Shown piece after piece: positions 6,031 to 49,935 of a DNA stretch of 64,000 bases. Each line of letters starts with the position of its first letter. The first letter of the stretch is position 1. The stretch spans positions 62,001-126,000 of the forward strand of contig VENA01000009.1 of NCBI GenBank assembly GCA_009711785.1, in the 5' to 3' direction. Position numbers and translations under genes: made by a program. A model generated the notes under the pieces. It had not been told where the DNA came from, searched no databases, and worked only from the letters and a program-made list of their open reading frames with translations. This DNA is from Bacillota bacterium (GTDB taxonomy: Bacteria > Bacillota > Clostridia > Tissierellales > MES13).

Positions 6031-8328
6031 TTGGATTTAAGAGGTGCAAAAATAAGAAATATTTATCATTTATGTTCTGAAATGAGTAACGAAGATAAGA
6101 GTCCTTTAATGGTGAATATTCCACATTATCAAAGACCATATAAATGGGATGAAGATAGAATAAAGTTACTAATAAGTGATTTTTTTGAACATTATAATTC
6201 AAATTCAAAGAAAAATAGTACAACTGAAGACAAAAAATATTTTGCGGGTTCTATTGTAACTGTTAGAAAGAATGAAAATAGTGATTATTTAGATCTTATA
6301 GATGGACAACAAAGAATCACTACAGTTTATTTAGTTAATTATTTAAAGTTTTTATTGCTTAGAGCCTATTTAAAACAAGTAATTGGCGCTATGCGATTAA
6401 CTAAAATTAATAAAAATCTTGATTTGATGTTGAATTGTTATAATGATCTTATTCAAAAAAATGGTATTAATACTACAAAAATTGAAAATAAAATTTATCA
6501 TTTTGAAAATGAAATTGAGCGTTTTGATAACCAACAAGAAAAAGAAGATTTAGTAGAAGAAATGCTTGAATATTTTATGAAAAAGTTTAAATTACCAAGA
6601 ATATATATAAATAGCGACGAAGAATATTACATAGAGTATAAGGAAGGTCTATGTGAATTAATAGGAAAAGAGGATATAAATTTAAAATATAGTAGAGATT
6701 CACTTAATAATAAATTAAAAAATGCTTTATATAGAATTAATATTAAATTAACCACAGAAGAGGGGCCAAACTTTGAAGTAATTAACAGGAAAGAAATTGA
6801 TAATGATTTAATAAATACTTATGTAAATGCATTAAATTATATATATAATACTTTTGAAGAATATACAGATAATAATTCTAAAAATCCTTTAGATAAGACT
6901 AAGGAGATGATAGATAAAATAGATTTATTTCTTCAAAATTTAAATTTTTGTGTAATTGAAACAGGGAATACTAATGATGCTTATACATTATTTGAGGTAC
7001 TTAATGATAGAGCTTTAGAAGTAGATGACTTAGATCTTATCAAAAATTTATTTTATAAAGAGTATTGTTTAAAATCTAAGGAAGACGAGGAAATAAAAGA
7101 TGATAATATAGAAAAACTTGAAGATTTATGGGGAGATAAAATTTTCACAGATAATACAGGAGTAAAAAAGCAAAAAACTATTTCATTTTTAGGTACAGTA
7201 TTTTTAACGGGAAGTAATTCTATAAAATTTAATGATAAGGAAGAATATCGTAAAAAGTTAAAAGAAGAATACTTAGATAATCAGACTGATTATAATTACG
7301 AAAAAATATATTATAATTTTAAAGTTTTTCAGGCTGTAAAAGAAATTATTAATAATTATGGAATACCGTATCAAAAGAGGGAAATAAGTTCTTTAGAAGC
7401 AGAAAACAATCCTAGAGTCTCCATAACATACAGAACTTTACATCTCCTTAACTCAGTAAAACAATATGGAGTTATGCCTGCTCTAGTAAATATAATATTA
7501 AAAAAGTTTATGAAATTGAATAATGGGATGCTAGATATATGTCAATTTAGAGATTTTATTATACAGTTAAAACAGGATGAAGAACATCAAGATGATAGAT
7601 TTAAAGAAATTCATGAATGTGCACATAATCTTTGGAAATTAGTTATGCTTTCTGATAGTTATAAAAAGCCAAGAGATTTTGCTAAAGATATAATATGTAG
7701 TATTAATGATAAAGATTTCAATAACCACATTATTAAACTTAATCAAGAATTGTTTGATGAAGCTAAAAAAGAGTTTTCAGAGTGGACAAGTAGGTGGTAT
7801 AAAAACACGAAAGATGATTTAAGAATAAAGTTATTATTTCTTAAATTGATATGTGGAAAAAAACAAAATGGTAAGATAGTTTATTACAATTATCATAAGG
7901 GGGTTTTTAAAAATGTTAGAAATCTACAACTTGATCACTTTGAACCAAAAAACATACAAAAAAGCCATCCTGAAAAGTATTTTACCCCAGTAACAGGAAA
8001 TAGAGATTTATATGTAGATAAACTCGGAAATTTTATGCTTCTAGAAAAAGAAAAAAATGCAAGCTTAAGCAATAAACCTGCTGAAAAATCATTTCAGTAT
8101 TATGGAAAAATGGGAGTCGACTCAGACCATTGGTTAGTAAAAGAAATGAAAGAATTATTAAATAACCACAGTGAAAAGAAAGGTGACATTAAAATTCCTA
8201 CTGAAGAATTTTTTAATGAAAGAAAAAATAGGTTGCAGGATTACTTTTTCACAATAATTAACAAAAAACTTCGAGAAGATGAAGTAATTATACAAGAAGT
8301 AGATGGTCAATTAAGTTCAGCATATTAA
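6031..8328 (+). CDS. sspE: SspE-like phosphorothioate-sensing effector (DUF262 + DUF1524)
   Basis: A 765-residue protein with a DUF262 domain at the N-terminus: IPHYQRPYKW at residues 30-39 and the NTPase-like DGQQRITT at 91-98. A DUF1524 HNH-type nuclease lies at the C-terminus: LQLDHFEP at 632-639, then LGNFMLLEKEKNASLSNKP at 665-683. This is the architecture of SspE, which senses phosphorothioate DNA through the N-domain, hydrolyses nucleotide and nicks invading DNA. The related GmrSD type IV enzymes share it, so the neighbours decide: SspD/B/C/A-like genes follow. Start is TTG with AAAGGGGGCAA upstream. The usual 'HI(L)P' of DUF1524 is DHFEP here, but the His is kept. A terminator separates it from sspD. 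Confidence 0.82.
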   Translation: MDLRGAKIRNIYHLCSEMSNEDKSPLMVNIPHYQRPYKWDEDRIKLLISDFFEHYNSNSKKNSTTEDKKYFAGSIVTVRKNENSDYLDLIDGQQRITTVYLVNYLKFLLLRAYLKQVIGAMRLTKINKNLDLMLNCYNDLIQKNGINTTKIENKIYHFENEIERFDNQQEKEDLVEEMLEYFMKKFKLPRIYINSDEEYYIEYKEGLCELIGKEDINLKYSRDSLNNKLKNALYRINIKLTTEEGPNFEVINRKEIDNDLINTYVNALNYIYNTFEEYTDNNSKNPLDKTKEMIDKIDLFLQNLNFCVIETGNTNDAYTLFEVLNDRALEVDDLDLIKNLFYKEYCLKSKEDEEIKDDNIEKLEDLWGDKIFTDNTGVKKQKTISFLGTVFLTGSNSIKFNDKEEYRKKLKEEYLDNQTDYNYEKIYYNFKVFQAVKEIINNYGIPYQKREISSLEAENNPRVSITYRTLHLLNSVKQYGVMPALVNIILKKFMKLNNGMLDICQFRDFIIQLKQDEEHQDDRFKEIHECAHNLWKLVMLSDSYKKPRDFAKDIICSINDKDFNNHIIKLNQELFDEAKKEFSEWTSRWYKNTKDDLRIKLLFLKLICGKKQNGKIVYYNYHKGVFKNVRNLQLDHFEPKNIQKSHPEKYFTPVTGNRDLYVDKLGNFMLLEKEKNASLSNKPAEKSFQYYGKMGVDSDHWLVKEMKELLNNHSEKKGDIKIPTEEFFNERKNRLQDYFFTIINKKLREDEVIIQEVDGQLSSAY

Positions 8329-8358
8329 TAATATTATAGGTATTGATTAAATAAAAGT

Positions 8359-8392
8359 AGGACTGTGAATGTATTTATTTACAGTCCTATTT
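8359..8392 (+). terminator. Terminator between sspE-like and sspD-like genes
   Basis: AGGACTGTGAAT (8359-8370) pairs with ATTTACAGTCCT (8377-8388), with one G-U wobble, followed by ATTTATT. It shows that the effector and the modification operon have separate transcripts. Confidence 0.75.
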
Positions 8393-8443
8393 ATTACCTA
8401 GATAATTAATAATGAATAGAATAAGTATTTTAATATTACACAC

Positions 8444-8457
8444 AGAACAAAAGTTCG
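8444..8457 (+). promoter_or_regulatory. Candidate LexA (SOS) box upstream of the modification operon
   Basis: AGAACAAAAGTTCG contains GAAC-N4-GTTC, the core of the Gram-positive LexA/DinR box (CGAACRNRYGTTYC). It lies about 10 bp before the putative -35 of the sspD promoter. One such site can arise by chance in 64 kb, but its position is suggestive. Confidence 0.45.
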
Positions 8458-8465
8458 CTTTGATA

Positions 8466-8494
8466 TTTAACATATTATAAACCTATGTTATAAT
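8466..8494 (+). promoter_or_regulatory. Probable sigma-A promoter of the sspDBC operon
   Basis: A perfect -10 TATAAT (8489-8494) lies 17 bp after a weak -35 TTTAAC (8466-8471). The inverted pair AACAT/ATGTT overlaps the spacer and could bind a regulator. Confidence 0.55.
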
Positions 8495-8529
8495 GAATTA
8501 GTAAAGAATACATATTTGGGGGACCTATT

Positions 8530-10350
8530 GTGAGTTATGATAACGAAAATAAAGATATAAATTCTAAGGAAGATACTATAGTTCAAGTTTACTGTGATAA
8601 TTGTGAAAAGAAAATCTCAGTAGATTTAACAAATGCACACAATTATATATGTCCAGATTGTGGTAAAGAAACACAAGAAGATATACCAATTGAAGTTTAT
8701 TGGTGTGATGAATGTAAAATTCCAATTATTAGAGAATTAGAATCAAAACATAAGGGAAATTGTCCCCTTTGTAATACAGAATTAAAGTACCTAAGTAAAG
8801 ATTTAAGACCAGTTTTTCCAGAAGAAAGACTATTATTAGAAGTGATAAAAGGGAAACCACTAGAATATTTGAATAAGTCTGTTTGGAATAGTATTAACAG
8901 ATATTTTATAAATAGTAATTCAACAATAGAGTTACTGAGTACAAAAGAAATGGAAACTTTAAATATTGATAAGATAAAAAAAGATATAGATGAACTACAA
9001 GATGAAAATTACTATGAAAATTTTAATAAAACAATCACAAAATTTATAGAGGCTAATAAATTTAGATATTATCAACTAAAACAGGAAGCTACTGATTTTA
9101 TAAAAGATGTTAAAGATAGGTATAACTTTAAAGATAAACAAATCTTAGTTTCTTTTTCTGGTGGAAAAGATTCAACGGTTGTATCAGATCTAGTTACAAA
9201 AGGGTTAAGTAATAGTAGGATTACACATATTTTTGGTGATACAACCTTAGAATTTCCTACTACTTATGAATATGTAGAAAGATTTAAAAAAGATAGTAAA
9301 GCATTAGTGAGAACGGCTATTAATCGACAGAATGATTTTTATGATATGTGTGACAAAATTGGTCCACCGAGTAGATTAATGAGATGGTGCTGTCACGCCT
9401 TTAAGACAGGGCCAATATCTAGGACAATTAATACTAAATTTAATAGATATGACAGGATATTGACTTTTTATGGTATAAGAAAAAATGAATCAATTTCAAG
9501 AAGTAAATATGATAGAATTTATGATAGCCCTAAAATAACAAAGCAAAAAGTAGCAGCACCAATATTTAATTGGAAAGATATTGATTTGTGGTTATATATG
9601 TTTGCTGAGAATTTAGATTTTAATAGCGCTTACAAATTAGGGTTTGACAGAGCAGGATGCTGGTGTTGTCCTAATAATAGTGATAGATCAGAATTTCTTT
9701 CAAAAATATATATGCCAGAGAAGTCTAAAAAGTGGAGAGATTTTCTTATTGAGTTTGCTAAGGATATAGGAAAAAAAGACGCGGAAGTATATGTAGATAC
9801 TGGAAAATGGAAAGCAAGACAAGGTGGAGATGGATTAGATGTATCAGAAACAGTTAAATTAAATACTAAAGCTTGTACGACAGAGGAAAATGCAAAGATA
9901 TATAAATTAGAACGATCTATTGATGATGAATTTTATAACCTGTTTGTACCTTTTGGTAAAATAGATAAGGAATTAGGTAAAAGTTTAATTGGTGAAGTTT
10001 TGATCCGTGACATGAAGACTAAGGTACCTATTATTTCTTTACAACCGTATAATACAGGAGAAAATAAGGAGTCCGTTAAAATAAAAACCCTTAATGTAGA
10101 AAATAATGATGATTTACATAGAATGATTTCATACCAGATAAGAAAATTTAATGCATGTCAAAAATGCTTAGCTTGTGAATCAGTATGTAAGTATGGAGCT
10201 ATTTCTATAAAGGGAGATATCTATAAAATCGATGAAGAAAAATGCAAGAGATGTAAGATGTGTGTAACGGCTAAATACCTTGATGGAGGGTGTTTAATGT
10301 CTAAATATTTAAGAACTAGAACATCTAAGGAGGAAGAAAATGAAATTTAG
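8530..10350 (+). CDS. sspD: SspD/DndC-like PAPS-reductase-family sulfurtransferase with zinc ribbons and ferredoxin domain
   Basis: A 606-residue ATP pyrophosphatase-family protein that probably adenylates DNA and carries sulfur for phosphorothioation. Two CxxC zinc-ribbon pairs occupy the first 85 residues (CDNC...CPDC and WCDEC...CPLC). The nucleotide-binding PP-loop is SGGKDS at 210-215. Family cysteines follow in RWCCH (285-289) and GCWCCPNN (376-383). The C-terminus is a ferredoxin: C543-x2-C-x2-C-x3-C and C572-x2-C-x2-C-x9-C588. DndC/SspD proteins bind an Fe-S cluster; the fused ferredoxin suggests a built-in electron path. GTG start with TTGGGGGGACC upstream. It overlaps the next gene by 11 bp, so translation is probably coupled. 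Confidence 0.82.
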   Translation: MSYDNENKDINSKEDTIVQVYCDNCEKKISVDLTNAHNYICPDCGKETQEDIPIEVYWCDECKIPIIRELESKHKGNCPLCNTELKYLSKDLRPVFPEERLLLEVIKGKPLEYLNKSVWNSINRYFINSNSTIELLSTKEMETLNIDKIKKDIDELQDENYYENFNKTITKFIEANKFRYYQLKQEATDFIKDVKDRYNFKDKQILVSFSGGKDSTVVSDLVTKGLSNSRITHIFGDTTLEFPTTYEYVERFKKDSKALVRTAINRQNDFYDMCDKIGPPSRLMRWCCHAFKTGPISRTINTKFNRYDRILTFYGIRKNESISRSKYDRIYDSPKITKQKVAAPIFNWKDIDLWLYMFAENLDFNSAYKLGFDRAGCWCCPNNSDRSEFLSKIYMPEKSKKWRDFLIEFAKDIGKKDAEVYVDTGKWKARQGGDGLDVSETVKLNTKACTTEENAKIYKLERSIDDEFYNLFVPFGKIDKELGKSLIGEVLIRDMKTKVPIISLQPYNTGENKESVKIKTLNVENNDDLHRMISYQIRKFNACQKCLACESVCKYGAISIKGDIYKIDEEKCKRCKMCVTAKYLDGGCLMSKYLRTRTSKEEENEI

Positions 10351-11266
10351 AGGTCATGAGACCTTTCATATAAGAAAAGGTTGGCTATATAAAGGTTTAA
10401 AAAATGTAAAGAAGAACGATAGATTTTTTTTAGATAATGACATAAATCCTACTGATTTTTTAGGTATAGGAACAAGTATGGTTAAATCCTTAAGATATTG
10501 GCTTCAGGCAGTAGGATTAACAACAGAAGAAAGAGAAGGAAATACAATACATCAAAGGTTCACTCCATTTGGTAAAATTATAATGGGTAATGACAAGTAT
10601 ATGGAGGAAGAAGGCACTTTATGGTATTTACATTATAAGCTTGCTTCTAATAAAGAATTAGCAACGACATGGTATTGGTTTTTTAATGTTTTTAATATGA
10701 ATGAGTTTAGCAAAGAAGAGTTTGTTAATAGTTTAGATAGTTATATCAGATATAATTTAAAAGATAAACCTGTTGCTATGAGATCTCTAGAAGATGATTA
10801 TAATTGTTTAATAAATACTTACTTGTCAAGAAAAAAAAGATATCCTAATAAGAAAATTTCCCCTGAGGAAAACTTAGATTGTCCACTAGGGGAATTAAAT
10901 TTATTAGATATAGTTGATAAAAAGAGAAAAATAATAAAAAAATCAAAACTAAGAAAAGATGCAATACATCCATTGATTATTTTAAGCATAATTATCGATC
11001 AATATGAAAAGTATGAGTATAAGAACGAGTCTAAAGAAATAAAAATAGCAAACTTACTTAATAATCCTTGTAATATAGGTAGAATTTTTAATATGAATTT
11101 AAATACATTAAATCATTATTTAGATAGATTACAGGAACTTAGATATATAACTGTTACAAGAACGGCTGGATTAGATGTAATAAACTTAAGAACTGATTTA
11201 GATTCGCTTGAGACATTAAAAAAATATTATAAAGAAATTGGTTCTTTAGAAGTGAGGGATTTTTAA
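10340..11266 (+). CDS. sspB: DUF4007 protein, SspB-like DNA nickase candidate
   Basis: A 308-residue protein. The N-terminus carries the DUF4007 signature: FRGHETFHIRKGWLYKG, then FLGIGTSMVKSLRYWLQAVGL. The C-terminus looks like a winged helix (LLNNPCNIGRIFNMN, LNHYLDRLQELRYITVTRTAG). In the SspABCD system SspB is the DUF4007 component reported to nick DNA so that sulfur can be placed on one strand. It overlaps sspD by 11 bp and ends 1 bp before the ATPase gene, so the three form one operon. GGAGGAAGAAA lies before the ATG. Confidence 0.82.
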   Translation: MKFRGHETFHIRKGWLYKGLKNVKKNDRFFLDNDINPTDFLGIGTSMVKSLRYWLQAVGLTTEEREGNTIHQRFTPFGKIIMGNDKYMEEEGTLWYLHYKLASNKELATTWYWFFNVFNMNEFSKEEFVNSLDSYIRYNLKDKPVAMRSLEDDYNCLINTYLSRKKRYPNKKISPEENLDCPLGELNLLDIVDKKRKIIKKSKLRKDAIHPLIILSIIIDQYEKYEYKNESKEIKIANLLNNPCNIGRIFNMNLNTLNHYLDRLQELRYITVTRTAGLDVINLRTDLDSLETLKKYYKEIGSLEVRDF

Positions 11267-11267
11267 A

Positions 11268-14200
11268 ATGACTGATAATAACAAGATATCTAACTTTATT
11301 ACTTCAGCACCAGGTTTTCAGTATTCTATAAATTTGAAATATGATTTACTAAGTAAGAAAAAGATTGAAAACTATATACCAACAACAAGTTCTTTAGAAA
11401 TAATAGAAGAAGTACTATTAAGTATAAATTCTAATTCTAATGATAGATCTAGGATTTTAATTGGTCCCTATGGGAAAGGTAAATCTCATTTGGTGTTAAT
11501 GATAATATCTTTACTGTATTATAAAGATGAAAAACTATTTAGCAATTTACTTAGCAAAATCAAAGAGTATGATAAGAAGCTTTATAATTTAGTTCAAGAA
11601 ATTCTAGAGGATAATAAAAAGATGTTACCAGTCATAGTTTCGGGTAACAGTTTAAATCTTAAACAATCTTTACTTAATTCGCTTAAAGAAGCTCTAGAAA
11701 ATCATGGATTAGATAGTGTTATGCCAACTACTTATTTTAATTCTGCTTTAGAAACGATAAAAATGTGGAAAAGTAGTTATAAGGATACTTATGATAAGTT
11801 GTGTGAAAATATAGATATGTCTATAGAAGACTTTAAAAAAGAACTAAATAATTATAATGAAGAAGTTTATAATATGTTTACAGATATATATCCTATACTA
11901 ACGTCAGGTGGAGAATTTAATCCTATGCAAGGTATAGATGTAGTAGATCTGTATTCTAATGTAACAGAGAGTATAAAAAAATGTGGGTATAAAGGTATAT
12001 ATATAATTTATGATGAGTTTAGTAAGTACCTTGAGGGGAGTATAGATAGACAATCTTCTGCTGAAATAAAATTATTACAGGATTTAGCTGAAAAATGTAA
12101 TAGAAGTAAAAATACTCAAATGCATATGATGTTAATATCACATAAAGATATTAATAATTATGTAGATAGACTACCAAAGGAAAAAGTTGATTCATGGAAA
12201 GCAGTAGGAGATAGATTTAAAACTATTGAAATAAATAATTTAGATATACAAACTTATGAAATAATGTCAAATGTTATTTTAAAAGATGATAATAAATGGA
12301 AAAAATATAAAGACGCTAATAAGGAAATTTTTAAAAATCTAGTGTTAGAAACAAGTAAAATAGGTCTATTTGGGAATTTAGGGACAGATCTAGAGAATAA
12401 AGTGGTATATGGATGTTATCCATTGCATCCAATAAGCACTTATATATTACCTAAGATATCAGAAAAAATAGCACAAAATGAAAGAACAATATTTACTTTT
12501 TTATCTACAAACGAAAGGAACACTTTAAAATATTATTTGTCTAATAACGAAGATGAGTTTCCTTTATTGACACCTGATTATATTTTTGATTATTTTGAGG
12601 CATTATTCAAAAAAGAAAACTATAATTCTGAAACATACAATATTTGGAGAGATACTTCTAATGCTCTAAAAAAAGTAGAAGATGATGATAAATTATCTAA
12701 GAATATAATTAAGACTATAGGATTAATATATATTTTAAATGAGTTTCAAAAGTTACCTCCAACAAAAGAAATTATAAAAACAGTTTATAGAAATTATAGT
12801 GATAAACAAGTTGAGGAAGTTGTAGAATATCTATTAGATCACAAGATTATATATAATCTAAAAAGTAAAGGCTATTTAAAATTCATTGATGCAACAGATA
12901 TAGATGTAAACAATCTTATTTCTAATACTATAGAAGTAAGGAAAAATGTATTTTCATCTAAAAAAATACTTAACGAGAATTTTTATGACAATTATGTTTA
13001 TCCTACAAGATATAATGATGAGAATGAAATAATTAGATATTTTAAAGTTGAGTTTATAGACTTTAAAGAATTATTATCTACTGAAGATTGGAATCTAAAA
13101 ATAGAAGATAAAGATGGGGATGGAGTTATTTATTCAGTGCTAGTAAATGACAATGAAGAATTAAAAAGGTCAAGCGAGATTGTTAAAAATATTGAGTATC
13201 AAAGAATAATATTCATATTACCCAAACAACCAATTAGATTAAACTCACTATTAAAAGAGTATGATGCGATTAAATATTTAATTGGTAAAAATCGCTATGA
13301 AGGAAATGACCAATTACTTGATGAAGAACTTAATGTCCATTTAGAAGATGTTGAGAATCAATTACAAAGTTACTTAGATATTTATATAAAACCAGAAAAA
13401 AAAGCTGCAAATTATTATTATAGAGGAAAAAGGAAAAGAATAACTAGAAAATCAAATTTAACAAGACTAATTTCAATTATATGTGAGAAAGTATATAATG
13501 ATACTCCAGTAATAATAAATGAACTTATTAATAAGGATAAACCTACTAAAGTAGCTATAAGGCATAGACAAAAAGTAATAGATGGTTTATTAAGGAACAA
13601 AATAGAGAAAAATTTAGGATTAAAAGGATATGGACAAGACGTCACTATTATGAGAGCTACTTTAATAGTTCCTGGTATATTAAAACAGAATAATAAAAAA
13701 GCATACTTAGACAATGTAAATATACCAGCTAAATTAAAAAATGTATTGGATATAATAAGGGATTATTGTATAAAAACTTCAACAGAAGGAAGTAAAACTT
13801 TTTCTGAGCTATACAATATTTTAATAAAGCCTAAATACTCTATAGGTTTAAAAAGAGGAGTAATACCAATATACTTATCAGTAGTACTACACGAGCTAAA
13901 AAAATACGCTGTCATAACAAGAAAAGGGATTGAAGAAGAACTTACCCCTCAACTTTTAAAAGACATAAATAATAAACCTAATGAATTTCAAATTTATATA
14001 GAAGAGTGGAACGAAGATAAAGAGCAATTTATAAATGAACTTGATGAGTTATTTAATGAATATATAAATATTAGTGAAAAAGAATATAATACTTTTGATT
14101 ACATTGTAAAGGCTATGCAAAGATGGTTTTTACAGTTGCCTAAATATACAAAGGAATATGAACAGAAGTATTTAGGAAATAATAAATATAAAAAAATGGA

Positions 14201-14903
14201 TAAAAGTGTAATAAGATTAAGAAATGGGTTAAGAGGGGCAAAAATTAATTCTAGACATTTTCTGTTTAATAAGATGTTTAAGATTTTTAAACATAAGAGT
14301 TTTACTAATAATGTAATTAAAGATGTTACAAAATGTAAAGAACAGTTAGATAATAGCTTAGATGATCTAATTTTAAAATTAGCTAAAGATGTTAAAGAGA
14401 TGTTTGAAAATGGACAAAAACTTGAAACTACCTTATATTCTATAATGAAAGATTGGTATGAGGAAAGAAATGATAAAACAAGAAATCATTTATTTAGTTC
14501 AGGAGAAGATAAATTTTTAGACTTAATAAAAAATATTGATAATAATGAAATTCAATTTATTAAGAATTTATCTAGAATAACAACAGGTTTAAGAATAGAA
14601 GACTGGCAGGATAAAAACGTAAAAGAATTTATTGATAAAATAAAAGAATTTAAAAATAATATAGAGGTATATGATAAAAAATTAAATAATAGAAGAACAA
14701 ATCAGACAGAGGATAATTTATATAAAATTGTTTCATATGAGAAGGGGAAGAAAATTGAGAAAACCATAGAAAAAGAAAAAATATCAGATACAGCAAAAGA
14801 TTTATATGAAGAAATTGAAATTATAATGAAAGACTATTCATATACAATTAATGAAAATGAAAAAAGACAGGTATTACTTGAAATTCTTAATAAAATTTGC
14901 TAG
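11268..14903 (+). CDS. sspC: SspC-like large P-loop ATPase of the phosphorothioation module
   Basis: A 1211-residue AAA-type ATPase. Walker A is GPYGKGKSH (residues 66-74). A Walker-B-like acidic motif follows in YIIYDEFSKYLEG (245-257), then a sensor-like LISHKDINNYVDR. The rest is helical, with basic stretches near residue 725 (YYRGKRKRITRK). The size and layout recall the large ATPases of SspC and BrxC/PglY type. Its place directly after a DUF4007 gene favours SspC, which powers DNA modification. The motif search is by eye, so the exact family remains open. The start ATG lies 1 bp after the sspB stop. A hairpin with a T run follows the gene. Confidence 0.75.
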   Translation: MTDNNKISNFITSAPGFQYSINLKYDLLSKKKIENYIPTTSSLEIIEEVLLSINSNSNDRSRILIGPYGKGKSHLVLMIISLLYYKDEKLFSNLLSKIKEYDKKLYNLVQEILEDNKKMLPVIVSGNSLNLKQSLLNSLKEALENHGLDSVMPTTYFNSALETIKMWKSSYKDTYDKLCENIDMSIEDFKKELNNYNEEVYNMFTDIYPILTSGGEFNPMQGIDVVDLYSNVTESIKKCGYKGIYIIYDEFSKYLEGSIDRQSSAEIKLLQDLAEKCNRSKNTQMHMMLISHKDINNYVDRLPKEKVDSWKAVGDRFKTIEINNLDIQTYEIMSNVILKDDNKWKKYKDANKEIFKNLVLETSKIGLFGNLGTDLENKVVYGCYPLHPISTYILPKISEKIAQNERTIFTFLSTNERNTLKYYLSNNEDEFPLLTPDYIFDYFEALFKKENYNSETYNIWRDTSNALKKVEDDDKLSKNIIKTIGLIYILNEFQKLPPTKEIIKTVYRNYSDKQVEEVVEYLLDHKIIYNLKSKGYLKFIDATDIDVNNLISNTIEVRKNVFSSKKILNENFYDNYVYPTRYNDENEIIRYFKVEFIDFKELLSTEDWNLKIEDKDGDGVIYSVLVNDNEELKRSSEIVKNIEYQRIIFILPKQPIRLNSLLKEYDAIKYLIGKNRYEGNDQLLDEELNVHLEDVENQLQSYLDIYIKPEKKAANYYYRGKRKRITRKSNLTRLISIICEKVYNDTPVIINELINKDKPTKVAIRHRQKVIDGLLRNKIEKNLGLKGYGQDVTIMRATLIVPGILKQNNKKAYLDNVNIPAKLKNVLDIIRDYCIKTSTEGSKTFSELYNILIKPKYSIGLKRGVIPIYLSVVLHELKKYAVITRKGIEEELTPQLLKDINNKPNEFQIYIEEWNEDKEQFINELDELFNEYINISEKEYNTFDYIVKAMQRWFLQLPKYTKEYEQKYLGNNKYKKMDKSVIRLRNGLRGAKINSRHFLFNKMFKIFKHKSFTNNVIKDVTKCKEQLDNSLDDLILKLAKDVKEMFENGQKLETTLYSIMKDWYEERNDKTRNHLFSSGEDKFLDLIKNIDNNEIQFIKNLSRITTGLRIEDWQDKNVKEFIDKIKEFKNNIEVYDKKLNNRRTNQTEDNLYKIVSYEKGKKIEKTIEKEKISDTAKDLYEEIEIIMKDYSYTINENEKRQVLLEILNKIC

Positions 14904-14916
14904 GACACTTGTTGAT

Positions 14917-14958
14917 AGCTCACAGTTAAAATGTTATTATTTTACTGTGGGCTTTTTT
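14917..14958 (+). terminator. Hairpin with T run between sspC-like and sspA-like genes
   Basis: AGCTCACAGT and ACTGTGGGCT frame a stem with a wobble and a one-base bulge, followed by TTTTT. It may partly uncouple the cysteine desulfurase and downstream genes from sspDBC. Confidence 0.65.
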
Positions 14959-15000
14959 AAAAATTTGGAAATACTAATAACTTTTGGATGAGGTGAATGT

Positions 15001-16158
15001 ATGAAAGATATTATATATTTTGATAATTCAGCTACTACTTATCCTAAACCTGAGATAGTTTATAATTACATGGATGAGTTTTATAGAAAATTTGGAATAA
15101 ATGCGAATAGAGGAAAATATAGCAAATCAAATCATGTTAGAGATATTATTGATAGTACTAGGAAATTATTAAAAGAGTTGTTTAATTGTCCAAAAGACAA
15201 GGAAGTAGTTTTTACTTCTTCTGCTACAGAGGCTATCAATATAATTTTACAAGGTATTAATTGGAGTTCAATTAATAATGTTTATTTAACACGATTTGAA
15301 CATAATGCGATTTTAAGAACACTTAATCATTTAAAAAAGAAATATAATATAAATATAAACTATTTAGAATGTGATAAAGAATCATTAACTTATAATCTAG
15401 AAAAAATAAGATATCAGTTCGATGAAATAAATCCAGATTTAGTAATAATGACACACGCAAGTAATGTATGTGGTAATATCACACCAATTAAAGAAATATC
15501 AAGTATTGCTAAAAAGTATAATTCAAAAACTATGGTAGATGGAGCACAGACTTCAGGTTTACTCGATATAAACCTTAAAAAAACTGATATAGATTATTTA
15601 GTTTTTGCAGGACATAAAACTCTATATGGTCCTTTTGGCATTTCAGGTTTTGTTGTTAATAATGATTCTAATATAAGACCTTTAATGTTTGGTGGTACAG
15701 GCTATGATTCAGCTAATATAGAACTACCAGAATCAATACCACAAAAATTTGAAGTAGGTAGCAAAAATACTTTAGCTATAGCAGGTCTTTATGCTTCGTT
15801 AAAATGGATTAATAAAGTAGGACGGGAGGAAATATTAAAAAGTGAGAAAAAATTAACAAAACTTTTATTAGAGTGTTTAGAAGATTTTGATAATATCAAA
15901 GTCTTTAAAACTAAAGATTTAGAAAATCAATTAGGGGTAGTTTCATGCGTATTTAATAATATAGCAAGTAATACAGTGGGACAAGTGTTAGATAAAAATA
16001 ATATAGCTGTAAGAACAGGGTTACATTGTGCACCTGAAGCACATAAATTTATAAACACTTTTCCCGGAGGGACAGTGCGATTTAGTTTAAGTTATTTTAA
16101 TAATGAAGACCAGATTTCTAAAATATATGATGTTTTAGAAGAAATATATTTTAGTTAG
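15001..16158 (+). CDS. sspA: SspA-like cysteine desulfurase (NifS/SufS-family)
   Basis: A 385-residue PLP-dependent class V aminotransferase that would take sulfur from L-cysteine and pass the persulfide to SspD. The N-terminus IIYFDNSATTYPKP is the family signature. The PLP lysine is K206 in AGHKTLYGPFGISG. The active-site cysteine is C343 in GLHCAPEAHK, a short-loop SufS-like site. Housekeeping Suf/Isc genes are absent, and the gene sits between the SspC-like ATPase and the PLD-helicase, so a dedicated role in DNA phosphorothioation is inferred. GATGAGGTGAATGT before the ATG is a good ribosome binding site. Confidence 0.82.
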   Translation: MKDIIYFDNSATTYPKPEIVYNYMDEFYRKFGINANRGKYSKSNHVRDIIDSTRKLLKELFNCPKDKEVVFTSSATEAINIILQGINWSSINNVYLTRFEHNAILRTLNHLKKKYNININYLECDKESLTYNLEKIRYQFDEINPDLVIMTHASNVCGNITPIKEISSIAKKYNSKTMVDGAQTSGLLDINLKKTDIDYLVFAGHKTLYGPFGISGFVVNNDSNIRPLMFGGTGYDSANIELPESIPQKFEVGSKNTLAIAGLYASLKWINKVGREEILKSEKKLTKLLLECLEDFDNIKVFKTKDLENQLGVVSCVFNNIASNTVGQVLDKNNIAVRTGLHCAPEAHKFINTFPGGTVRFSLSYFNNEDQISKIYDVLEEIYFS

Positions 16159-16229
16159 ATTGAATATATATTTTAAATATATATCCTTAAGTCGATTAAT
16201 TAAACAGGGATAATACTAGAGGTGAATAT

Positions 16230-18398
16230 ATGGATTATTCTAAACACAATTTAAAAATAAAATACAGGTCATCAGAAGATGATATAGTTAAAGATTTTTT
16301 TATTCCTACATTTAAAGCCACTAAGCTATATAAGAGAGCAGTAGGGTACTTCTCGTCATCTTCTCTTATTACTGTTTCTAGAGGAATAACTAATTTATTA
16401 AAAAACAAAGGAAAGATGCAATTGATTGCATCACCTGAATTGCAAAAGGATGATATAGAAGCGGTAAACAAAGGGTATAAAGCAAGAAAGGAAGTATTAG
16501 AAAATACTCTAATCAACTCATTTAATGAACCTAAAAACTATTTTGAAGAAGAAAGACTTAATTTATTAGCTCATTTAATTTCTAGAGGAACATTAGATAT
16601 TAAAATAGCCTTTATGGAAAATGAAGGAAAATTAGGCTTGTATCATGAAAAAATAGGAGTCATGTATGATTTTAATGAAAATAAAATTGCTTTTACAGGT
16701 TCTTTGAATGAATCTTCTAATGCTTTTACTGAGAATTTTGAATCGATAGATGTTTATTATTCTTGGAAAGGAGAAGATAACTTAGAGAGAATTAATGAAA
16801 AAGAGAAAGATTTCGATGCATTGTGGTATGATCATACAAAGAAAATAAAAGTGGTAGAATTTCCTAAAATAGCTTTAGAAAAGTTGAACTCTTATAAGAA
16901 AAAGAATGTAGATTTTGAAATCGATAAAAAACAATTTTATGCTCCAGTAGAAGAGAAAATTGAAAAGAAAAAATATCCTAAATTACCAAACAAAATTCAA
17001 TTATATGATTACCAAAAGAAGGCAGTTAAGGAGTGGGAAAATAATAATTTTAAAGGTATTTTTAGTATGGCTACTGGAACTGGAAAAACTATAACGGGTC
17101 TTGCAGCAGTGGCAAGATTATCAAGAAAGCTATCTCATAATTTAGCTGTGCTTATAATTTGTCCATATCAACATTTAGTTGAACAATGGGTAGAAGATAT
17201 TAAGAATTTCAATATGGATCCTATAATTGGCTATTCTACATCATCACAAAAGAATTGGAAAAAAAGGTTGAAGGATTCAGTTATTGATTACAACTTAAAT
17301 ATTATAAATCATTTTTGCTTTGTTACAACTAATGCAACTTATTCTTCTGAATTTGTACAAAAGCAAATAAACAAAATCAAAAATAGTGTTGTAATAGTAA
17401 TAGATGAAGCACATAATTTTGGGGCGTCAAACTTAAGTAAAAAACTTAATTATAATATTCCGTATAGATTAGCATTATCAGCTACTCTAGAGAGATACAG
17501 AGATCCAGAAGGTACAAAAAAACTATATAACTATTTTGATAAAGAGTGTATAAAATATCCATTACATAAAGCAATAAAAGAGGAAAAATTAACGCCATAT
17601 AACTATTATCCTGTACTAACATGGTTAACTAATGAAGAGCTAATTGAATATAGAAGATTATCTAAACAACTTGCTAAGTGTTTTGACAAAAGAAAAGGGA
17701 AAAGGGTTTTAAATGAAAAAGGTAAAAAGTTAGCAATTAAGAGAGCAAGATTAGTTGCTGGTTCTGTTAATAAATTAAGTGCTCTAAAAAATAGAATTAG
17801 GGATTATAAAGAGTCTTCATATATATTAGTGTACTGTGGAGCTACTACAGTATCTGATCCAGATTATAAGTATGGAGAAGCAGAGAAATCTGAATTAAGA
17901 CAAATAGAAGCAGTGGCTAGTATACTTGGAAATGAATTAGGGATGAAAGTTTCACAATTTACATCTGAAGAAGATAGTAAAGAAAGAGAAAAAATTAAGA
18001 AGGAATTTTCAAAAGGGAAGAACTTACAAGCATTAGTAGCAATTAGGTGTTTAGATGAGGGAGTTAATATACCAGATATAAGAACAGCTTTCATCCTTGC
18101 TAGTAGTACTAATCCGAAAGAATATATTCAACGTAGGGGCAGAGTACTTAGAATCTCAGAAGGGAAAAAATATTCAGAGATTTTTGATTTTATTACTGTT
18201 CCTAGGCCATTAGAGAATGTTAAAAATTTAAACGAAAGCGAGATAAAAGGAGATGTTTCTCTTGTAAAAAAGGAAATCGAAAGGATGGAGGATTTTGCTG
18301 AGATTTCAGAAAATCCACAAGATTCCTATAAATTAATTAATCATTTAAAAGAGGTATATGATTTAGACAAAATTACCTGGGGGGATAAGTATGAATAA
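16230..18398 (+). CDS. PLD-domain superfamily 2 helicase, candidate SspF/G-type restriction component
   Basis: A 722-residue protein. Residues 1-210 resemble a phospholipase-D-type nuclease domain with one HxK motif (H139-E-K141-IGVM) and the following TGSLNESSNAF. A superfamily 2 helicase follows: Walker A MATGTGKT (280-287), DEAH (392-395), ALSATLERYRD, and motif VI YIQRRGRVLRI (QRRGR at 634-638). PLD-helicases are common in restriction and defence loci. In a phosphorothioation island it fits the SspFGH module, which damages unmodified DNA. I cannot say which of the three names applies. Its stop overlaps the start of a 50-residue ORF. Confidence 0.7.
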   Translation: MDYSKHNLKIKYRSSEDDIVKDFFIPTFKATKLYKRAVGYFSSSSLITVSRGITNLLKNKGKMQLIASPELQKDDIEAVNKGYKARKEVLENTLINSFNEPKNYFEEERLNLLAHLISRGTLDIKIAFMENEGKLGLYHEKIGVMYDFNENKIAFTGSLNESSNAFTENFESIDVYYSWKGEDNLERINEKEKDFDALWYDHTKKIKVVEFPKIALEKLNSYKKKNVDFEIDKKQFYAPVEEKIEKKKYPKLPNKIQLYDYQKKAVKEWENNNFKGIFSMATGTGKTITGLAAVARLSRKLSHNLAVLIICPYQHLVEQWVEDIKNFNMDPIIGYSTSSQKNWKKRLKDSVIDYNLNIINHFCFVTTNATYSSEFVQKQINKIKNSVVIVIDEAHNFGASNLSKKLNYNIPYRLALSATLERYRDPEGTKKLYNYFDKECIKYPLHKAIKEEKLTPYNYYPVLTWLTNEELIEYRRLSKQLAKCFDKRKGKRVLNEKGKKLAIKRARLVAGSVNKLSALKNRIRDYKESSYILVYCGATTVSDPDYKYGEAEKSELRQIEAVASILGNELGMKVSQFTSEEDSKEREKIKKEFSKGKNLQALVAIRCLDEGVNIPDIRTAFILASSTNPKEYIQRRGRVLRISEGKKYSEIFDFITVPRPLENVKNLNESEIKGDVSLVKKEIERMEDFAEISENPQDSYKLINHLKEVYDLDKITWGDKYE

Positions 18399-18543
18399 GA
18401 TCAAAGAAAAAAAAGCAAATATTATGATAAGTAAAATACTAGATTTAGAGAAAGAAAATTTAAAAACTAAAAAATATAATGATTACGATATGATAGAAAA
18501 AGTTAAAAAAATTATAGAGGAGGAGGTGAAGAAATGTTATTAA
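18391..18543 (+). CDS. Small 50-residue charged protein bridging helicase and SMC-like genes
   Basis: The ATG at 18391 overlaps the stop of the helicase gene, and the stop overlaps the start of the next gene by 10 bp. This arrangement is typical of translational coupling. GGGGGATAAGT lies directly upstream. The product is highly charged and probably helical (IEKVKKIIEEEVKK at the end). No family was recognised. It could be a real subunit or adaptor, or only a device that links translation of the flanking genes. Confidence 0.5.
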   Translation: MNKIKEKKANIMISKILDLEKENLKTKKYNDYDMIEKVKKIIEEEVKKCY

Positions 18544-20525
18544 AGCGTTTAAAATTAAAAAATTTCAGACAATACAAAGGAGATAATGAGATAAATTTTT
18601 CTACTGATAAAGACAAAAATGTTACAGTGATTTTAGGGAAAAACACAAGTGGTAAAACTACTCTTGTGCAAGCTTTTACTTGGGTTTTATATGGAGTTAC
18701 TAATTTTAAAACCAAAGATTTTCTTCTTAATTTAGAAGTAGCTAACAAACTTAAAAATAACGAAATCGCAAGTGTAGAAGGCACTGTTGAATTAATACAT
18801 GATGGAATTAAATATACTATTTCAAGGAAGCAAGATTATAAATGTTATACAACAAACGAAGTAAAGGCTCTACAGTCTCATTTACATATTCAATATAAAG
18901 ATAAAAATGGTCAAACTAAATTTATAAAAAATGATTTGAATGATACTATAAATAAGATATTACCAGAAGATTTGTCTTCACATTTTTTCTTTAATGGAGA
19001 AAGAATAGCTAATCTAGGTAACAACGACAGAAATGGGAAAAAAGATTTGGCTCAAGCAGTTAAGGGAGTGTTAGGTTTAAATACTTTATCAAAGTCTATT
19101 GATCATTTATCAAAAGGGTATAAACATAGTGTAATTTCTAGATTAAAGAATAGTATAGATGATGAAGGTAATAAAGAATTAAAAAGATTACAAGATAAAT
19201 ATAAATCAATTGAGAAAGAATTAGGTGATATGAAGGAAAGATTAGAAAAACGTAAAGATGTTATACAATATTATAAAAAACAAAAAGAACGTTTAGAAAA
19301 AGTTATTTTAGATAACAAAGCAACTGAACATATACAAGAAAAAATAAATACAAATGAAAAGGAGATTAAAATCAAAGAAGAAAATCTAGAAAATATAAAA
19401 AAAGATATAGTAAAAGAATTTTCGAATAAAGCACCAATGTATTTTATGCAACCTTTGTTAATGAGAGTTATGAAACTTTTAGAAGAAAATAAAGAATTAG
19501 ATAAGGGTATACCTGAAATGCATGCTGATTCTATAGATCATATAATAAAAAGAGGAAAGTGTATTTGTGGAACTAAAATTGAAAAAAGTTCAAATGAATA
19601 TTTAAATCTAATGGAACAAAAAAAGAATTTGCCTCCTCATTCTATAGGTACAGAAATTAAATTATTTGCAAATAATGCTTCACACTATCAGAATATAGCT
19701 GAAGAGTTTTATGATAGTATTGATAATGAATATAAGTCTTTTAGAAAAGTAAAAATAGAAATTTCAAATCTAGAGTCTGAAATTGAAAATGATTCTAAAA
19801 AGATCGAAAACGATATAAACGTAAAACAAAAGCAAAAGGAAAAAAAAGAAATAAATAAAGAAATAGAAGAACTAGAGGAAGAGAAAGATGAATTAATAGC
19901 GGAAATTAGCAAATTAGAAAATGATATTAAGAGAGTAGATAATAAAATTTCTAGCTTAGCTTTTGCTTCGAAAAAGAATCAGCATATTAAACAATGTTTA
20001 GAATATGCCGAATATATATCTAATAAATTACAAAACCATTATAAATCTAAAGAAATAGAAATAAAAAACAAACTAGAGAATAGAGTTAATGAAATATTTA
20101 ATAAAATGTATCATGGCAATAGAAGTATTATATTAGAGGATAATTATAAATATAAATTAGAAACTCCTGAACTTAAGAGTGATTTCCAGTCAAAGGCTGA
20201 TGCATCTGCAGGATTAGAGACTGTAACAAGCTTTGCTTTTATTTCAGGGATAGTTGATTTAGCAAGAGAAAAAATGTCAGATAATGGACATATTGAAGTG
20301 AAATCAGAACCATATCCTTTGGTTATGGATGCACCTTTTTCTAACGCTGATGATAATCATATAGAAAATGTTTCAAATATTTTACCTAATGTTGCTGAGC
20401 AAGTAATAATGTTTATTATGCATAAGGATTGGAATTATGCTAAAAATGTACTGAACTCTAAGTATAACCAAATGTATCAATTAAATAAAAAAAGGGAAAC
20501 ACTTACTATAATAGAGGAGTGGTAA
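18534..20525 (+). CDS. DndD-like SMC/RecN-type AAA ATPase with zinc-hook-like centre
   Basis: A 663-residue SMC-like ATPase. The N-terminus LLKRLKLKNFRQYKG is typical of RecF/SbcC/DndD proteins, with Walker A GKNTSGKTT (35-43). Two long coiled coils (about 200-300 and 400-500) flank a CxC turn, CIC (343-345), where Rad50-type hooks have CxxC. The ABC signature-like SAGLETVTS and Walker B YPLVMDAPFSNADD (D599) are near the end. It probably couples ATP hydrolysis to DNA handling in the SspFGH-type part of the island. GAGGAGGTGAAGAA before the ATG is a strong ribosome binding site. It ends 2 bp before the last gene. Confidence 0.72.
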   Translation: MLLKRLKLKNFRQYKGDNEINFSTDKDKNVTVILGKNTSGKTTLVQAFTWVLYGVTNFKTKDFLLNLEVANKLKNNEIASVEGTVELIHDGIKYTISRKQDYKCYTTNEVKALQSHLHIQYKDKNGQTKFIKNDLNDTINKILPEDLSSHFFFNGERIANLGNNDRNGKKDLAQAVKGVLGLNTLSKSIDHLSKGYKHSVISRLKNSIDDEGNKELKRLQDKYKSIEKELGDMKERLEKRKDVIQYYKKQKERLEKVILDNKATEHIQEKINTNEKEIKIKEENLENIKKDIVKEFSNKAPMYFMQPLLMRVMKLLEENKELDKGIPEMHADSIDHIIKRGKCICGTKIEKSSNEYLNLMEQKKNLPPHSIGTEIKLFANNASHYQNIAEEFYDSIDNEYKSFRKVKIEISNLESEIENDSKKIENDINVKQKQKEKKEINKEIEELEEEKDELIAEISKLENDIKRVDNKISSLAFASKKNQHIKQCLEYAEYISNKLQNHYKSKEIEIKNKLENRVNEIFNKMYHGNRSIILEDNYKYKLETPELKSDFQSKADASAGLETVTSFAFISGIVDLAREKMSDNGHIEVKSEPYPLVMDAPFSNADDNHIENVSNILPNVAEQVIMFIMHKDWNYAKNVLNSKYNQMYQLNKKRETLTIIEEW

Positions 20526-49518: not shown

Positions 49519-49602
49519 AAAAGCTTTATCAAATATACAACTAAAGTACATAATAAAGGAGAACTTTAATATGTGTAGAAAGTAATTTATAGAGGTGATA
49601 GT

Positions 49603-49935
49603 ATGTATGAAGGTATGAAAGTAGGAATATTTAATGGAACTGTGGCTACAACTAATGGTGTATATAAAATAAGTGATATAGATATAAAGGATGCAAAAAA
49701 ACTTTTATTAAAAAATGGTTTTATATCTGCTATAGGACATAAATCAACTGCTGAAGCGATATCTGATACATTTGATATGGATATACCTATGAATAGAATA
49801 AATTTCAAACAAAAGGTTAGTCAAAAGGCAGTAGTATTTAAATTAAATAAAAGACCGCCAGAGGGGAGTATATTATCTAGAGAAGAAATAGAAAAGATAG
49901 GCTATTCATTTAAGTTAATGGAAAGATTAAAATAA
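49603..49935 (+). CDS. DUF1874 protein, AcrIII-1/Crn2 ring-nuclease-like
   Basis: A 110-residue protein of the DUF1874 (STIV B116/YddF-like) family: FNGTVATTNGVYKI, AIGHKSTAEAIS, IPMNRINF and KRPPEGSILSREEIE. In the viral ring nuclease AcrIII-1 and in Crn2 this fold cleaves cyclic tetra-adenylate. From memory its key residues are H47, R66, R85 and E88. The matching positions here are H46, R65, R84 and E87, so the active-site pattern looks intact. No CRISPR or type III genes are seen in the window. YddF proteins also occur in integrative elements. AGAGGTGATAGT precedes ATG. Confidence 0.75.
   Translation: MYEGMKVGIFNGTVATTNGVYKISDIDIKDAKKLLLKNGFISAIGHKSTAEAISDTFDMDIPMNRINFKQKVSQKAVVFKLNKRPPEGSILSREEIEKIGYSFKLMERLK

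Follow-up and report, generated by a model that had tools for sequence, protein, structure and literature searches.

An orphan chromosomal clade of predicted DUF1874 ring nucleases in Clostridia

Main finding and background

A 110-residue DUF1874 protein, encoded in the 64,000-nucleotide stretch of clostridial DNA analysed here (the window), is a member of a separate chromosomal clostridial clade that lies outside type III CRISPR loci and outside recognisable mobile elements. The protein carries, in register, the catalytic histidine and the arginine, arginine and glutamate residues of the AcrIII-1/Crn2 type. The reading favoured here, with a probability of about 60%, is a ring nuclease of the host, orphan and spread horizontally, that fits neither Crn2 nor any recognisable anti-CRISPR of a prophage. 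The more limited statement, that the gene is an orphan and horizontally spread host gene, is well supported.

The DUF1874 family and its enzyme activity are already known; the chromosomal orphan context is the new part. A 2007 paper pointed out bacterial homologues in Bacillus, Clostridium beijerinckii and Alkaliphilus and guessed at a viral origin (PMC1796864). More recently, a 2025 survey considered ring nucleases only up to 6 kb from type III loci, reported Crn2 in just seven prokaryotic genomes and read this scarcity as pointing to viruses as its source (PMC12409355). Because only such regions were scanned, a chromosomal clade of the present kind was invisible to that design, whereas whole-genome searching reveals it, living mostly without type III CRISPR. 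Furthermore, the native anti-CRISPR role of viral AcrIII-1 is disputed (PMC11065993), which makes a cellular clade far from viruses well suited to asking what DUF1874 proteins do. No description of an orphan chromosomal DUF1874 clade was found in the literature searched, which lay largely outside subscription journals.

Gene and family assignment

The gene occupies positions 49603-49935 on the forward strand, exactly the open reading frame to which the earlier note had given a DUF1874 identity, and begins with ATG in the ORF list of the window. A likely ribosome-binding site, GAGGTG (49592..49597, forward strand), can be read 5 bases before the start codon. In Pfam, the protein matched PF08960 (STIV_B116-like) with 108.6 bits against a gathering cut-off of 26 (E 1.9e-31), covering essentially the full profile (positions 3-100 of 101), and this was the sole family named at E 0.1. 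Chance is excluded as the source of the observation. In addition, the PADLOC Csx16 model PDLC01147 matched the entire protein (E 6.9e-18). Csx16 has been reported to resemble 2J6B, but both Pfam and fold searches place the window protein in DUF1874. Since the model matches a DUF1874 protein from end to end, the Csx16 label in PADLOC output may mask Crn2/AcrIII-1 proteins.

Active site and predicted fold

The motifs GHKSTA, NRINF and KRPPEG provide H46, R65, R84 and E87. These had been proposed to lie one residue before H47, R66, R85 and E88 of the viral ring nuclease, and the alignments bear this out: residues 37-104 aligned by phmmer with residues 38-105 of SIRV1 ORF114a (2x4i), at equal lengths and with an offset of +1, so that the four residues fall on H47, R66, R85 and E88 of that chain. 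MAFFT gave the same register. The 6scf sequence has A in place of H at position 47. The codons lie on the forward strand at 49738..49740 (H46), 49795..49797 (R65), 49852..49854 (R84) and 49861..49863 (E87). Across a family alignment of 31 rows, only 8 columns were invariant, among them those of H46, R65 and R84, and E87 was present in at least 90% of rows. R66, R85 and E88 of AcrIII-1, and hence their counterparts R65, R84 and E87, are presumed to position the substrate. H46 also aligns with H495 of the Marinitoga piezophila Csx1-Crn2 fusion, in which the H495A substitution abolished cleavage of cyclic tetra-adenylate (cA4) (PMC7293037), and the family histidine has been described as a general acid (PMC7371418).

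A monomer model of the window protein, predicted with AlphaFold2 on 31 sequences, reached a mean pLDDT of 91.4. A comparison with AcrIII-1 had been suggested earlier; the predicted model superposes on 6scf, AcrIII-1 with bound cA4, over 106 residues at 1.7 Å (Z 15.3), covering the whole protein. AFV3-109 (2j6b) was the top solved match (Z 17.5), and Csx1-Crn2 with cA4 (8y7g) scored Z 15.6; the AFV3-109 and SIRV1 gp29 superpositions spanned 104-106 residues at 1.3-1.7 Å. All of the best solved matches were DUF1874 proteins (Z 15.3-17.5, two of them cA4-bound), with unrelated chains starting from Z 2.4. The nearest solved relatives by sequence were likewise AFV3-109, the Marinitoga Csx1-Crn2 fusion, STIV B116 and SIRV1 ORF114a/6scf. 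Given the aligned active-site residues and the superposition of the predicted fold on AcrIII-1 and Csx1-Crn2, cA4 cleavage by the window protein is very likely, and the degradation that the earlier note had called plausible keeps its support from sequence, family-wide alignment and fold.

AFV3-109 was originally proposed to be a nucleic-acid-binding regulator; a function of this kind, without enzyme activity, is hardly credible for the window protein by comparison. AFV3-109 was reported to bind double-stranded DNA in fluorescence quenching experiments (PMC1796864), and some virus records are annotated as "DNA binding protein"; however, structurally close proteins that share the catalytic residues of the window protein degrade cA4 and bind it with an affinity of about 25 nM (PMC7293037, PMC7213978), and H46, R65 and R84 are invariant.

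A separate clostridial clade

Relatives were collected from bacterial genomes, viral contigs, phages and plasmids, and a tree of 42 rows was built. In this tree, 11 chromosomal clostridial proteins formed one clade with support of 100/99, and all viral, plasmid and CRISPR-linked rows fell outside it; the nearest relatives of the window protein are non-viral. Two other clostridial copies (L027 and L007) were placed among the viral rows. Where viral members carry LNTSI-T, alignments show a clade-specific loop, FNGT-ATTNG, which reads FNGTVATTNG in the window protein (residues 10-19; 49630..49659, forward strand). When back-translated, this signature gave no exact hit in IMG/VR. Furthermore, searches of phages, plasmids and IMG/VR yielded no member of the clade, the best phage match to a member being 54%.

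The earlier note had left open whether the homologues were viral anti-CRISPRs, Crn2 or YddF. None of these describes the window protein precisely. AcrIII-1 (SIRV1 gp29, SIRV2 gp37 and the protein of phage THSA-485A) shares with it the DUF1874 fold, the in-register H/R/R/E residues and the monomer size, but is encoded by viruses or mobile elements, whereas the window gene lies in a chromosomal housekeeping context and belongs to a clade of which the viral collections searched yielded no member. Crn2 (Marinitoga Csx1-Crn2 and the Vibrio aerogenes plasmid locus) is alike in fold and in its catalytic histidine, yet belongs to type III loci. YddF of ICEBs1 in Bacillus subtilis is, like the window protein, a bacterial member of the same Pfam family encoded by a single small gene, but it is cargo of an integrated element (PMC1796864), and no such element was recognised around the window gene. 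The DUF1874 genes of C. beijerinckii and Alkaliphilus metalliredigens, known here from the 2007 paper alone, probably belong to the same clostridial group; that paper treated them as possible viral remnants and included no analysis of clade, transfer or CRISPR (PMC1796864). As a separate observation, the Vibrio aerogenes plasmid gene (L035, 3001-3318), annotated YddF, lies in a CRISPR locus with cas1 on one side and RAMP-family genes on the other, and is Crn2 on a plasmid.

The distinctness of the clade also bears on one of the two main rivals, namely that fold and active site were kept while the enzyme came to act on a different cyclic or linear nucleotide, belonging to clostridial physiology or to another defence system. 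The 11 clade members share 39 invariant residues, including those of the specific loop; the beta1-beta2 loops form the cavity floor in AFV3-109 (PMC1796864), and most hosts have no known source of cA4. Nevertheless, all four catalytic-site residues are as in cA4-specific enzymes, and the patchy distribution of DUF1874, present in about 2% of clostridial genomes, is unlike that of core physiology. A changed substrate is thus considered distinctly unlikely.

Horizontal spread and retention

Identity between DUF1874 proteins was uncorrelated with rpoB identity across 11 genomes compared by this one reference gene (rho -0.11, p 0.41). For instance, the window protein is 85% identical to the G487 copy while rpoB is 73% identical, and only 54-62% identical to the G157 and G004 copies, whose rpoB identities are 83-84%. 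Each clade copy also has different neighbours, the flanks including genes for homoserine O-succinyltransferase, CobO, MscS, PhzF-like, glyoxalase and LuxR proteins. Since identity does not follow species and neighbours differ from copy to copy, transfer of the gene between lineages is the simplest reading, for which the evidence is strong, if not yet conclusive.

Once acquired, the gene was retained, as judged from its unchanged position in the genus mate, a dN/dS of 0.14 between the two genomes, which indicates purifying selection and falls among the 0.11-0.24 of neighbouring genes, and an ordinary GC and base composition resembling that of its neighbours. In another member of the order (G187), a decayed clade fragment (NGFISAIDHEATAEIMSDLLGLSVLMNRI...; L023 near 9500, L011 1501-1623), which was left out of the tree, lies between other genes, so the DUF1874 gene was dispensable there.

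Genomic context and mobile elements

The surroundings of the window gene are of a housekeeping character, in keeping with its earlier description as chromosomal. The gene stands 84 bp from an AlgX/DHHW-type gene on one side and 119 bp from a MarR gene on the other, a kynureninase-like gene coming next after the latter, with AlgX/MBOAT functions represented among the neighbours. No integrase or conjugation genes were recognised around the gene in the window, and the list of families in the remaining window sequence included no terminase, portal or capsid family. An Rfam search of the window gave no match. Likewise, a conserved upstream element or operon partner of the clade genes was sought and not found, nor was there a local partner gene common to the clade genomes, where the other shared families were common transporters, regulators and sensors.

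These findings weigh on the other main rival, in which the gene arrived as AcrIII-1/YddF cargo on a prophage or integrative element and was stranded on the chromosome as a relic once that element had decayed. Several observations are consistent with it: phages and archaeal viruses commonly carry DUF1874 genes; yddF of B. subtilis is located in an integrated element, and it was guessed that the copies of C. beijerinckii and Alkaliphilus might be viral as well (PMC1796864); in one clade copy (L026) a transposase lies at a distance of 290 bp, the single such case among the clade flanks; and L027 lies in a prophage, though it belongs to the viral part of the tree. Against it stand the failure of the phage, plasmid and IMG/VR searches to find a clade member, the lack of phage structural and packaging families among those listed for the window, and the purifying selection and synteny seen with the genus mate. 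A stranded relic is therefore regarded as rather unlikely.

Type III CRISPR and other sources of cA4

The window contains no CRISPR, as had been noted from its sequence, and the wider search for a type III system, in whose immunity cA4 is the alarm molecule, was made with protein families. In the own genome, which is 88% complete, no match to RAMP families, no Cas10 above the cut-off and no SMODS (CD-NTase) match were found; two SMODS matches below the cut-off occurred in other genomes. The genus mate, 93% complete, also had no RAMP match, and in neither genome does the DUF1874 gene lie in or near a type III locus, as Crn2 would.

With only two genomes each for genus and family in the collection, order and class were used for a wider comparison. 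Among 621 order and class genomes, 11 had DUF1874 and 88 had RAMPs, the latter occurring in 2 of the 11 holders and in 86 of the 610 others (p 0.48), which is no enrichment. Restricting the comparison to clade holders gave RAMPs in 1 of 8 (p 0.71), and among the 11 clade genomes of the tree only G004 and Anaerovorax odorimutans (G624) had them. By these counts, the clade shows no link with type III CRISPR. Csm1 matches below the cut-off appeared in nearly all holders, mostly at the ends of the model (about 2-120 and 570-690); from these positions they were read as HD and GGDEF domains and rejected as Cas10. The exceptions were G378, with a true Csm1, and G624, whose match adjoins its RAMPs.

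It is quite improbable, on this evidence, that the gene is a Crn2 acting in trans for a type III system elsewhere in the genome that was missed or recently lost. Two clade holders do have RAMPs, the own genome is incomplete, and DUF1874 genes are known in type III loci (PMC7293037), with one in that of the Vibrio plasmid. However, neither the own genome nor the more complete genus mate has a RAMP, nine of the 11 clade holders are without them, and enrichment was seen neither for holders as a whole nor for the clade.

As an observation apart, genome G378 carries the viral-type DUF1874 gene L027 (9792-10118) in a prophage-like region beside phage genes, together with a Csm1 gene and RAMPs, and so represents a natural pair of host defence and counter-defence.

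Proposed function

The window protein is predicted to act as a homodimer with the DUF1874 fold and to be a ring nuclease that needs no metal, dimer formation and catalysis being proposed from its solved relatives. cA4 would bind in the cavity between the two subunits and be cut to A2>P and A2-P; H46 would serve as the general acid, while R65, R84 and E87 would hold the substrate in position. Genetically, the gene is best seen as a single-gene accessory unit in clostridial chromosomes, passing from one lineage to another and being maintained afterwards by purifying selection.

A ring nuclease under selection without a source of its substrate is hard to explain. The role preferred here is to counter the signal of transient type III systems: the enzyme would most likely cancel cA4 alarms raised by systems without a permanent place in the genome, such as those on incoming or resident mobile elements or those gained and lost by the lineage. 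A host nuclease controlling a cA4-like signal of an unrecognised non-CRISPR system appears doubtful, but, if true, such a signal would account for the upkeep of the clade without type III CRISPR.

A defence island in the window

The window also contains a phosphorothioation-type defence island at 6031-20525, with all genes on the forward strand. It comprises genes for an SspE-like GmrSD protein (6031-8328), a PAPS-reductase/BrxP/SspD-like protein (8530-10350), SspB with DUF4007 (10340-11266), SspC (11268-14903), an SspA/DndA-like cysteine desulfurase (15001-16158), a PbeA PLD-helicase (16230-18398) and a PbeC/DndD-like ATPase (18534-20525), and appears to combine Ssp with Pbe modules.
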